In this document: piece by piece, positions 1,857 through 9,270 of the stretch | Layout: every line of letters starts with the position of its first letter | Position numbering within the stretch: the first letter of the stretch is position 1 | Program-made: the position numbers and the translations under genes | The notes under the pieces: model-generated | The model's input: only the letters and a program-made list of their open reading frames with translations | What the model was told of the DNA's origin: nothing | Databases searched by the model: none | DNA from: Endomicrobium sp. | Lineage (GTDB): Bacteria; Elusimicrobiota; Endomicrobiia; Endomicrobiales; Endomicrobiaceae | Direction of reading: 5' to 3' | Assembly (NCBI GenBank): GCA_031260705.1 | Contig: JAISLA010000009.1 | Span: 1-64,000 of the forward strand | Length of the DNA: 64,000 nt

Positions 1857-2369
1857 CTATGCCCAAACTATTTTCTCTTCTTTCTCAACTACAATTTTTT
1901 TCACCGGATATATTTCTTTCAGTATTTCTTCAGGCTTAAACCACAGTTTAATTTCTCTTGCGGCTCCCGAAAGATCTGAAGAACAGTGTATGACATTCTC
2001 ATACACGCCTTTAGTTGTTATTCTTCCGTACGATCCTCTGATTGAAACGTGATCTGCTTCCTCAGGATTTGTCGCTCCAGCAATTTTTCTCATCCTTGAA
2101 ACGGCATCCTCGCCTTGATAGATAAATGCCAACACTCTGTCCCAAGGCTCTCCATATATTTTACCCTGAATATAATCTAGAAGTTCGTTGAAAAAAGGCT
2201 TATCTTTGAGATGACAATAATGTGCTTCTGCCAAATCTCTGCTTACCTTAACTGCTTTTGCTCCTATAATAACCATTCTGGACTCTGAAAGTTTAGTTAA
2301 AATATTTCCTGTCAAAGACTTCTTAATTCCATCCGGTTTAATTAAAATTAAGAGCTGTTCAATTTCCAT
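1857..2369 (-). CDS. ndk: Nucleoside diphosphate kinase
   Basis: Transfers the gamma phosphate of ATP to NDPs through a phospho-histidine. 170 residues, somewhat longer than the usual 140-150. The N-terminal LILIKPDG strand is typical. The catalytic segment reads NVIHCSSD at about residues 126-133; the active-site His is present, but the usual following Gly is Cys. The start is an ATG whose first 11 bases overlap the end of pssA, which suggests translational coupling in a pssA-ndk unit. Downstream 1732-1856 holds no gene. Confidence 0.93.
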   Translation of the reverse strand: MEIEQLLILIKPDGIKKSLTGNILTKLSESRMVIIGAKAVKVSRDLAEAHYCHLKDKPFFNELLDYIQGKIYGEPWDRVLAFIYQGEDAVSRMRKIAGATNPEEADHVSIRGSYGRITTKGVYENVIHCSSDLSGAAREIKLWFKPEEILKEIYPVKKIVVEKEEKIVWA

Positions 2370-3162
2370 TATTTTTTACTTTTGACGGATAAAATTTTTT
2401 TAAAATTTTCCAATACTTAGCCGCATAGGCAAGTGTACCAGAAAAAACATATAAAGTAAACAATATAAAAATAATATTTTGCGGGAATGTAACTATAAGC
2501 CATATAAGAAACACCATCAAAATTAAAAGCCTAAACACTTTAGGCTTTGAAAATTCCATTTTTTTAAACGAGACATAAGGAATATTTGAAACCATAAGTA
2601 AAGACAAAAGCCCCATCATGACAGGCATTGTTTTAAAAAATACCGGCATATTCTTCATCAAAATTGGTATTGTCTTAAATGTCAAAGATTGATCCAGACC
2701 TGCAATAAATAATTCGTAACTTAATACAAAAGATATTAACAGTCCCGCCGACGCCGGCGTCGGCAATCCCATAAAAGAACTATGAACCTCTTTGCCATTT
2801 GCCCTAACATTAAATTTGGCAAGTCTTAAAGCGCTGCACAAAATAAATAATACAGCAATCGACTTGCCGACCTTTCCCATAGAATTTAAAACAAGTTGAT
2901 ACATCATTACTGCAGGTGCAATTCCGAACGACGTTAAATCGCTTAAAGAATCCAGTTGAACGCCAAACTCGCTTGTCGTTTTTGTCAGTCTTGCAATTCT
3001 TCCGTCCATCATATCAAAAGCTATGGCAAACATAAGAAGCCACGCCGCTTTTGTAAAATTTCCGTTTATCGACGATATTACAGATAAACAGCCGCAGCTT
3101 ATATTTCCACATGTAAAAAGACTCGGTATTATATAAATACCCTTTTTCAATTTTTTGCTCAC
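2359..3162 (-). CDS. pssA: CDP-diacylglycerol--serine O-phosphatidyltransferase
   Basis: Integral membrane enzyme making phosphatidylserine from CDP-diacylglycerol and serine. 267 residues with several hydrophobic helices. The CDP-alcohol phosphotransferase signature is intact at about residues 49-75: D, then DG, AR, a conserved G, and two more Asp in the expected spacing (FDMMDGRIAR followed by G-V-Q-L-D-S-L-S-D). It lies 9 bases downstream of psd and overlaps ndk by 11 bases, so psd-pssA-ndk looks like one transcript. PssA and Psd together make phosphatidylethanolamine, fitting a diderm envelope. Confidence 0.94.
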   Translation of the reverse strand: MSKKLKKGIYIIPSLFTCGNISCGCLSVISSINGNFTKAAWLLMFAIAFDMMDGRIARLTKTTSEFGVQLDSLSDLTSFGIAPAVMMYQLVLNSMGKVGKSIAVLFILCSALRLAKFNVRANGKEVHSSFMGLPTPASAGLLISFVLSYELFIAGLDQSLTFKTIPILMKNMPVFFKTMPVMMGLLSLLMVSNIPYVSFKKMEFSKPKVFRLLILMVFLIWLIVTFPQNIIFILFTLYVFSGTLAYAAKYWKILKKFYPSKVKNNGN

Positions 3163-3171
3163 AACGGTTTC

Positions 3172-3792
3172 CTATTTATTTAAAGTTGCAAAAATTGTTA
3201 CGCCCGACACAACCTTATCACCTCGACTTACTTTAATATCAGTGTTTCTGGGAATATGCAAATCCACTTGAGAACTGAACTTTATTACGCCTATTTTATC
3301 GCCGGGCTTTAAAATATCGCCGGGCTTTACCCACGAAACGCATCTTCTTGCAAGTATGCCAGCAATCTGTTTGACAAGATACTTACCGCCTTCATTTTCT
3401 ATAGTTATAATGTTTTGTTCGTTAACTATATGAGCCTGAGGTTCCATAGCTTTTAAAAATTTCCCGGGCTTATATTCAACACTTTTAACTTTTCCCAAAA
3501 TTGGCGAACGCTGCAAATGCACATCCAAAACCGATAAAAATACTCTTATAACTTTTTCCGTTTCATTTTCGCTCACTTCCAAAACTGTTCCGTTGCACGG
3601 AGAAAGAATTAAATTATCTCCTCTTGTTATCTCTATTTCAGGATCTCTAAAAAAATACAGACAGAACAACGAAACCAAAACACACAAAGTTCCCACCGCA
3701 ATTAAAATTACGCCCCGACCCGCAATCAGAAATACCAAACCTAAAATAAGCGGAACTATAATGAACTGATACCCTTCTTTCACAATTCGCAT
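3172..3792 (-). CDS. psd: Phosphatidylserine decarboxylase proenzyme with Ser-Ser cleavage site
   Basis: Decarboxylates phosphatidylserine to phosphatidylethanolamine using a pyruvoyl group made by self-cleavage. About 206 residues, the short form of the family. N-terminal hydrophobic segments lie at about 9-45, and the C-terminal alpha-chain region reads VDLHIPRNTDIKV. The ATG at 3792 was chosen because AAGGA precedes it by 8 bases; the frame is open to 3858, which adds 22 unlikely residues. Odd: the maturation site, normally Gly-Ser (FGS), reads KFSSQVDL at about 171-178, so the residue before the pyruvoyl Ser is Ser. Ser-Ser cleavage is known in bacterial histidine decarboxylase, so activity is possible but unproven. 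Confidence 0.88.
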   Translation of the reverse strand: MRIVKEGYQFIIVPLILGLVFLIAGRGVILIAVGTLCVLVSLFCLYFFRDPEIEITRGDNLILSPCNGTVLEVSENETEKVIRVFLSVLDVHLQRSPILGKVKSVEYKPGKFLKAMEPQAHIVNEQNIITIENEGGKYLVKQIAGILARRCVSWVKPGDILKPGDKIGVIKFSSQVDLHIPRNTDIKVSRGDKVVSGVTIFATLNK

Positions 3793-3927
3793 GCCAGCAT
3801 TCCTTCCATACAGCCACTTTTTATACGCCTCTGGCATAAATTTTATAAAAAAACACAATCTTATGCAAAAAAAATTATTGAAAATCAGGCATTTTTTTAA
3901 TGCTAAAACCGCGCCAGTCTGCCCTAA

Positions 3928-5014
3928 TTATTTCTTTTTCTCAAGTTTCCATGACAAATACGCACTTATAAAATCGTCAATATCTCCATCCATAACTAAA
4001 TCCACCCGCGACGTTTCATATCCTGTTCTGTGATCCTTCACAAGCTGATACGGCATAAAAACATAAGAACGTATCTGGCTGCCCCATTCTATGGCGCCTT
4101 TTTCATTATAGTGTTTCTCATAAGAAGCCCGCTGTTTTTCCTGTTCAAACTCATATAGTCTGGCTTTTAAAAGTTTCATTGCAGTTGCCCTGTTTTTTAT
4201 TTGTGAACGGTCATTTTGAGACTGGACTGTTATTTCCGTTGCCAAATGCGTGATTCTCACTGCGGAATCGGTTTTATTTATGTGCTGCCCTCCGGCTCCG
4301 GAAGCTCTATAAGTGTCAATTCTTATATCTTTATCTTCAATAATTATATCGATACTATCTTCCACTTCTGGTATAACGTCAACCGAGCTGAAAGATGTAT
4401 GTCTTCTTTTGTTTGAATCAAACGGAGAGATTCTAACCAGTCTATGGACGCCTATTTCTGACTGTAAAAATCCGTAAGCATATTCACCCCTTATTACCAT
4501 AGTTATATTTTTTATCCCGGCTTCGTCGCCATCCAGACTGTCAACAACTTCTGTTTCAAAGCCCTTATCTTCAGCCCATCTTGAATACATTCTTACTAAA
4601 ATCTGAGCCCAATCGCACGATTCCGTTCCTCCAGCGCCGGCGTGTATAGAGATAATTGCATTGTTTTTGTCGTGTTCTCCGCAGAGTTTTATTCTGGTTT
4701 CAAAAACTGAAAGTTCTTTTTCAAGTTTTTTACTGCCGTCTTCAACATCTTTTAAAAGTTTTTCATCGTTTTCGTTCGCCGCAAGCCTGCTCAAATCGAT
4801 TAAATCTTTAACTTCTCTGCCCATATCATGCCATAACCGGCATGCGTTTTTTAAACCATCGAGTTCTGCCATAGTTTTTTTGGCTTTATTTTGATCATTC
4901 CAAAAATCCGGTTCCGATATTTCAAGCTCAAGGCTTTTGATTCGATTCAGTTTTGAATCAATATCAAAGAGCCCCCCTTAAAACATCTATTCTATCTTTC
5001 TGCTGTTTAAGCAT
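3928..5014 (-). CDS. prfB: Peptide chain release factor 2 (programmed +1 frameshift)
   Basis: Terminates translation at UGA and UAA. Translation starts at the ATG at 5014 (AGGGGG lies 5 bases before it), runs 16 codons to CTT, meets an in-frame TGA at 4966-4964, and must slip +1 by skipping the T at 4966. It then continues in the frame that ends at 3928, giving about 361 residues. The RF2 tripeptide SPF is in RISPFDSNKRRHTSF, and the catalytic GGQ is in SGAGGQHINK near residue 250. The length matches the family. It lies downstream of lptE; 3793-3927, after the stop, is empty. Confidence 0.96.
4964..4980 (-). promoter_or_regulatory. prfB: prfB programmed frameshift site (internal SD, CTT, TGA)
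   Basis: Reads AGG GGG GCT CTT TGA T on the coding strand. The internal Shine-Dalgarno AGGGGG sits 3 bases before CTT, the same spacing as in the classic bacterial prfB site. The slippery CTT is followed by TGA, the stop that RF2 itself reads. The downstream +1 frame encodes the conserved RF2 N-terminal helix. Known mechanism: low RF2 lets the ribosome pause and slip, so RF2 autoregulates. Confidence 0.95.
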
Positions 5015-8515: not shown

Positions 8516-9270
8516 TCAAAAGACAATATGTTTTTTACTCAAAAAAATAAAATGTTCTAGATTTCCTCTGGGTCCCTTGAGACAGGAATCGGCTTCGGAA
8601 ATTATTTTAAAGCCCAGATCCAATGCGACTTTTTTAATTTTATTTATGGCTTTATGCCTTAATTTTTCATCTCTTACAATGCCTTTTTTTATTTCCGACG
8701 CTTCAAGCTCAAACTGCGGCTTTATCATAGCTAAAACAAAACCATTTTCCGAAATATTTCTGTATGCTACAGGCAAAATTTTATCAAGAGATATAAAAGA
8801 AACATCTATCGCCGCAAAGTTTATATTGTCTTTTAAAAAAGAGCCGTCAAAATACCTGAAATTAACATTTTCAACATTGATAGCACATTTGTCTTGTCTC
8901 AACTTATAATGCAGCTGACCTGCTCCGACATCTACCGCATAAACTTTAATTGCGCCTTTTTGAAGCATACAATCTCCGTAAAACCTCCTGTCGACGCCCC
9001 TATATCTAAACAAATATATCCCTCTACATCAATAGCAAGAGTTTCCAAAGCAGATTCCAGTTTTAATCCGCCGCGCGAAACATACGGATTTGCGTTTTTC
9101 ACTTCAACCGAATCTTCTTTTCCCACTAAAGTTCCGGGTCTATACTGAACTTGATTGTTTACAAAAATATTTCCGCCTATTATAAAAGCCTGCGCTTTTG
9201 TACGAGTTTCTGCAAACCCTTTTTCAAAAAGCAAAACATCAAGACGTTTTTTATTTTTCTTTTTTTCCAT
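8516..9270 (-). pseudogene. tlyA: TlyA family rRNA methyltransferase/hemolysin, frameshifted
   Basis: Two overlapping frames together make one TlyA. The first (from the ATG at 9270) holds the S4 RNA-binding domain (KKRLDVLLFEKGFAETRTKA) and the start of the Rossmann methyltransferase (VSRGGLKL, ICLDIGASTGGFT). The second resumes at DCMLQKGAIKVYAVDVG and runs to 8516 with the IDVSFISL and MIKPQFE motifs. The break lies at about 8970-8980, where GAGATT stands in place of the expected GATT, consistent with a 2-base GA duplication. TlyA proteins 2'-O-methylate ribosomal RNA. A sequencing error is the main alternative to a true lesion. Confidence 0.85.

Follow-up and report, generated by a model that had tools for sequence, protein, structure and literature searches.

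Work on the phosphatidylserine decarboxylases (PSDs) of E. coli, yeast and malaria parasites places two elements at the centre of proenzyme maturation, a Gly-Ser pair and an Asp-His-Ser triad. In the sections of PMC7952604 considered here, either of two aspartates, Asp90 or Asp142, suffices for the E. coli enzyme: the D90N and D90A variants undergo maturation and remain active, maturation is likewise seen in D142 mutants, and the D90A/D142A double mutant matures with a delay. For the cleavage site itself, the same sections describe delayed processing that reaches about 70% in G253A and in T255A, while G253P and S254A remain uncleaved. For PSDs with a Ser-Ser pair at this site, the part of the open-licence literature that was searched yielded no paper, a result that argues only weakly for their absence; words starting with phosphatidyl, phospholipid or psd do not occur in the main text of PMC11257099, the Endomicrobia genome paper.

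The window analysed here, the whole 64,000-nucleotide stretch of an Endomicrobium sp. contig, carries a psd gene at 3172..3792 on the minus strand, the strand of all features described below. It encodes a phosphatidylserine decarboxylase proenzyme of 206 amino acids, with ATG 3792 as the likely start (MRIVKEGY...), in agreement with the starts of relatives; the open frame spans 3172-3858 and offers TTG 3858 as an alternative start. The gene adjoins pssA (2359..3162), which encodes the CDP-diacylglycerol--serine O-phosphatidyltransferase that makes the PSD substrate (TIGR00473, 130.9 bits against a cut-off of 107), and it is the single psd match in the window's genome (989,969 bases; assembly 81.4% complete). 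Curated models class the product, on its sequence, as a phosphatidylserine decarboxylase: it scores 124.6 bits against PF02666 (cut-off 22) and 186.8 bits against NF003685 (cut-off 183), and stays below the cut-offs of TIGR00164, NF003678 and the other NCBIfam psd models. Sequence family, length, the FFRDP, SPxxG and D/NxHxxR motifs, the nucleophilic serine and the pssA neighbour are all shared with the short bacterial PSD / archaetidylserine decarboxylase group (PF02666; NF003685). Unlike that group, the window protein has Ser for Gly before the nucleophile and Asn for Asp in SPxDG.

The AlphaFold2 model of the protein (pLDDT 92.3, pTM 0.85; 47 sequences) has E. coli PSD as its best Foldseek match (6l06_A; E 1.5e-05, prob 1.00, TM 0.56 by query length), with a large rmsd for several of the matched chains. 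A profile alignment to PDB 7cnw and 6l06 (E 0.003) pairs SPCNG with E. coli PADG (Asp90) and LDVH with RDYH (Asp142, His144); a single-sequence PDB search returned chance matches only, and a search of viral contigs found no relative. The E. coli enzyme (6l06, 7cnw; PMC7952604) thus shares its fold, by Foldseek, and its aligned Asp90, Asp142 and His144 positions with the window protein, but it is longer and reads LGST at the cut, where the window protein reads FSSQ and also carries Asn at the Asp90 place. His92 (CAT, 3517..3519) is placed on E. coli His144 by the profile alignment, and Ser174 on Ser254 by motif, as the alignment stops short of Ser174.

The original prediction had reported, within 3245-3290, an FSS motif (AGT TCT) in place of FGS, and the codons TTC AGT TCT at 3279-3271 bear this out. 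Phe172 (TTC, 3277..3279) is followed by Ser173 (AGT, 3274..3276), which precedes the scissile bond at the place of the canonical Gly, and by Ser174 (TCT, 3271..3273), the predicted pyruvoyl-forming nucleophile. Strands 166-170 and 174-181 of the model flank the site and leave residues 171-173 between them, a predicted layout as expected for the loop before the cut. Cleavage at the position suggested by homology would yield a beta chain of residues 1-173 (3274..3792, 19.2 kDa) with Ser173 rather than Gly at its C terminus, and an alpha chain of residues 174-206 (3175..3273, 3.6 kDa) with the presumed pyruvoyl precursor Ser174 at its N terminus. Two predicted helices of the beta chain, 5-24 and 28-47, form a putative membrane anchor. 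Pyruvoyl-dependent histidine decarboxylase cleaves at a Ser-Ser pair, with a serine before the one that forms the pyruvoyl group. No match to histidine decarboxylase was present among the Pfam and NCBIfam matches, the PDB profile matches or the 50 Foldseek matches listed, and the parallel would be one of chemistry, without a family link.

The psd site was read in 92 loci, drawn from the order and also from further classes in the phylum; the residue before the nucleophile is Ser in 53 and Gly in 39. Within the Endomicrobiaceae, 76 genomes were searched, giving 66 readable family-type psd genes, nine genomes without a match and one fragment that ends short of the site. Ser-Ser occurs in 52 of these 66 genes and Gly-Ser in 14, across many separate assemblies, and includes genomes of 1.6-2.4 Mb; Candidatus Endomicrobiellum agilis is among the nearest named relatives, which points to the termite-gut Endomicrobiaceae as the source of the window. 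The other 26 loci comprise 25 with Gly, among them two second psd copies in Endomicrobiaceae genomes (L091 and L092), and a single one with Ser (L033), from another family of the same order. A coding pattern for FSSQVD is found in 53 of 340 phylum genomes, namely 52 Endomicrobiaceae, the window's included, and the genome of L033 (G037); the backwards control pattern matched none of the 340. Outside the Elusimicrobiota, two loci from Chloroflexi MAGs (L179 and L184) have FSSR among the best 80 of 137 named loci, the other loci from outside the phylum in those best 80 having Gly with the exception of L154. This last locus, on a contig labelled Paludibacter sp. STD2_198, is 70% identical to the window's psd, with SPCNG and FSS, and is probably a mis-binned Endomicrobiaceae contig. 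The 15 plasmid records that were read, from 59 with a psd match, all have Gly-Ser and the Asp of SPxDG. Ser-Ser is therefore, within this small survey, rare but recurrent outside the phylum.

With this distribution, the gene is a Ser-Ser variant of a known enzyme and a conserved trait of a gut-bacterial family, not a fresh mutation. The probability that the unusual base stems from a sequencing or assembly error is negligible: the same motif is present in 52 other phylum genomes and in named records from separate studies, and nothing was found in favour of an error. FGS relatives, which the original prediction had named together with a base error as what would speak against it, do exist as the 14 Gly-Ser genes, without any sign of the error. 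Its proposal of a single GGT-to-AGT change holds in that the codon lies one base from the Gly codon used by relatives; as a recent change private to this genome it fails, because most of the family shares the pair. A second PF02666 protein of 436-442 amino acids is encoded by some members of the genus (L120 of G016; also G004, G019 and G030), and L120 has a signal-like N-terminal stretch and FGGSD at the expected site.

We propose that the window protein matures by the route of the known enzymes, as set out in parts of PMC7952604 and PMC9385802. His92, aided by Asp90 of the window protein (the E. coli Asp142 position), would activate Ser174 for attack on the carbonyl of Ser173. The ester would then break by beta-elimination, leaving a beta chain that ends in Ser173 and an alpha chain in which Ser174 has become the pyruvoyl group, and the enzyme would decarboxylate the phosphatidylserine supplied by the product of the neighbouring pssA. 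The serine nucleophile and histidine general base of PF02666, Ser174 and His92, are present in all 66 Endomicrobiaceae sequences. The consensus Gly before the nucleophile is replaced by Ser173; it is a consensus residue and not a defining one, as enzymes of the two kinds are intermingled on the same tree. Among the 66, position 173 holds no residue other than Ser or Gly, and an invariant second serine behind a variable first residue points to Ser174 as the pyruvoyl source. Two adjacent serines also make a cut at Phe172|Ser173 chemically conceivable, with the first serine turned into the pyruvoyl group, but this would shift the group by one residue, and the first position is Gly in 14 of 66 genes whereas the second is Ser in all; we consider such a cut highly improbable.

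The Ser/Gly label needs 10 changes on the psd tree (92 rows, site masked), and parsimony arrives at the same 10 with either residue assigned to the family ancestor, an equal cost under which a single origin of Ser-Ser in the Endomicrobiaceae is a candidate history. A tree built from pssA and prfB of 41 loci with flanks, 16 of whose 41 rows hold less than half of the columns, requires 6 changes of the label, and Gly rows nest among Ser rows there too. Twelve of the 14 Gly-Ser genes branch from among congeneric relatives with FSS. In the window's genus, Gly seems to be a return that took place several times, mostly in small genomes, and its repetition suggests that Ser is not the better residue in every setting. 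Estimated genome size within the genus has a median of 0.74 Mb for Gly (n=12) and 1.26 Mb for Ser (n=25; Mann-Whitney p 7.5e-05), a comparison that ignores kinship and carries the uncertainty of MAG completeness. Exceptions to the tendency are the Gly lineage L025, whose genome is at least as large as that of its nearest Ser relative, and the Gly members G086 and G087 of another genus, which are large. We conclude that Ser-Ser is an old, tolerated and selected variant of the Endomicrobiaceae that apparently went back to Gly in some lineages. In one gene (L026, in G003), the sole Endomicrobiaceae psd with Asp at the E. coli Asp90 place, the cleavage site is Gly-Ser too, and both canonical residues appear to have come back. 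The apparent Gly returns, including this one together with Asp, provide ready-made enzyme pairs for comparison.

The psd genes of the Endomicrobiaceae are under purifying selection, with a median dN/dS of 0.144 for the Ser form (Nei-Gojobori, 476 pairs, dS < 1.6) and 0.245 for the Gly form (Nei-Gojobori, 65 pairs). Together with the invariance of Ser174 and His92 and a model that matches E. coli PSD, this makes an inactive enzyme unlikely, although selection is not proof of phosphatidylserine decarboxylation. Loss or decay of psd function alongside a retained pssA, which had been raised as a possibility from the FSS motif, would suit a reduced genome in which a tlyA-like gene close by is broken across two frames. 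That account is very unlikely, as dN/dS is about 0.14, the frame is intact, the catalytic residues are conserved and relatives with genomes of 1.6-2.4 Mb share the motif. It is very probable that the enzyme remains functional. We infer with high confidence that it is a functioning phosphatidylserine decarboxylase; its self-cleavage, the position Ser173|Ser174, the rate and the activity are predictions. Ser may nevertheless slow maturation, to judge from the slow G253A and uncleaved G253P forms in the E. coli mutant data of PMC7952604. The variant or slower maturation that the original prediction envisaged is a reasonable expectation on the same data, where G253A is slow and still largely cleaved.

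The cleavage site is not the only departure from the E. coli enzyme. Asn67 (AAC, 3592..3594), in SPCNG, occupies the place of the triad residue Asp90 of E. coli, and Asp90 of the window protein (GAT, 3523..3525), in LDVH, that of Asp142, the back-up triad aspartate. Of the 66 Endomicrobiaceae proteins, 61 have Asn at the first place, 4 have Ser and 1 has Asp; at the second place, 57 have Asp and 9 have Asn. Outside the family type, the first place holds Asp in 25 of 25 readable loci of the 26 (L092 was not read). The window protein may by analogy be likened to E. coli D90N combined with a change at G253, a combination that is not described in the mutant or discussion sections of PMC7952604. 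In Plasmodium knowlesi, Asp139, at the position of Asn67, is reported as essential in the part of PMC10172927 considered here. The loss of the first triad aspartate sharpens the question of how these enzymes mature, and the Endomicrobiaceae, mostly Ser-Ser and without that aspartate, offer a naturally occurring test of which elements maturation requires.

The nine proteins with Asn at the Asp142 place (L082-L090) belong to one genus, the rumen Ruminimicrobiellum, and also lack Asp at the Asp90 place; they resemble the delayed E. coli D90A/D142A double mutant in being without both aspartates. Most of them have Tyr for His at 121, and eight of the nine have Glu at 123. One tentative scenario, which we hold less likely than not, is that the self-cleavage site was rebuilt early in the Endomicrobiaceae, by the triad change from Asp to Asn and the change from Gly to Ser. 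Ruminimicrobiellum would then mature without the usual Asp-His-Ser triad, perhaps through the hydroxyl of the first serine or through a new residue close to the site, Glu123, probably slowly or under lipid control. It is rather unlikely that slow or conditional maturation was itself selected, as a delayed or lipid-regulated switch in which Asn67 and Ser173 jointly lower self-cleavage. Such a switch would be consistent with the delays of G253A and of D90A/D142A in the E. coli sections of PMC7952604, with Asn67 in 61 of 66 proteins and Asn at the second aspartate in all nine Ruminimicrobiellum-type proteins, and with the regulation of malarial PSD maturation by anionic lipids described in part of PMC10172927. 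Each change also occurs without the other, however: Gly173 accompanies Asn67 in 11 genes and Ser67 in 2, and Asp accompanies Ser173 in L033, L179 and L184, all outside the Endomicrobiaceae. An obligate Asn67-Ser173 coupling was rejected on these 13 genes and on the Asp-Ser173 combinations outside the family. Lipid analysis is made possible by the cultured Endomicrobium proavitum.

A further column may covary with the site. Cys44 (TGT, 3661..3663) lies where E. coli has Phe67, a residue that lines the acyl-chain surface together with Leu252 according to part of PMC7952604. Position 44 is Cys in 52 of 52 Ser173 proteins of the Endomicrobiaceae and Phe in 7 of the 14 Gly173 proteins, and all 5 of its changes fall on Gly173 branches, which account for 35% of the total length of the tree (p 0.005). 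Of the 165 variable columns, only 173 itself ranks higher. A Cys44-Ser173 coupling is a lead only, as the association is not significant after correction for 165 columns.

Two other genes in the window run over two reading frames. At 8516-9270, a gene that we take to be tlyA-like is divided between two frames, which suggests a pseudogene in a reduced genome. A programmed frameshift is a family feature of release factor 2. In prfB, at 4966-5014, the frame opens at ATG 5014, meets CTT TGA after an AGGGGGG run and continues in the next frame, which looks like this usual programmed frameshift.
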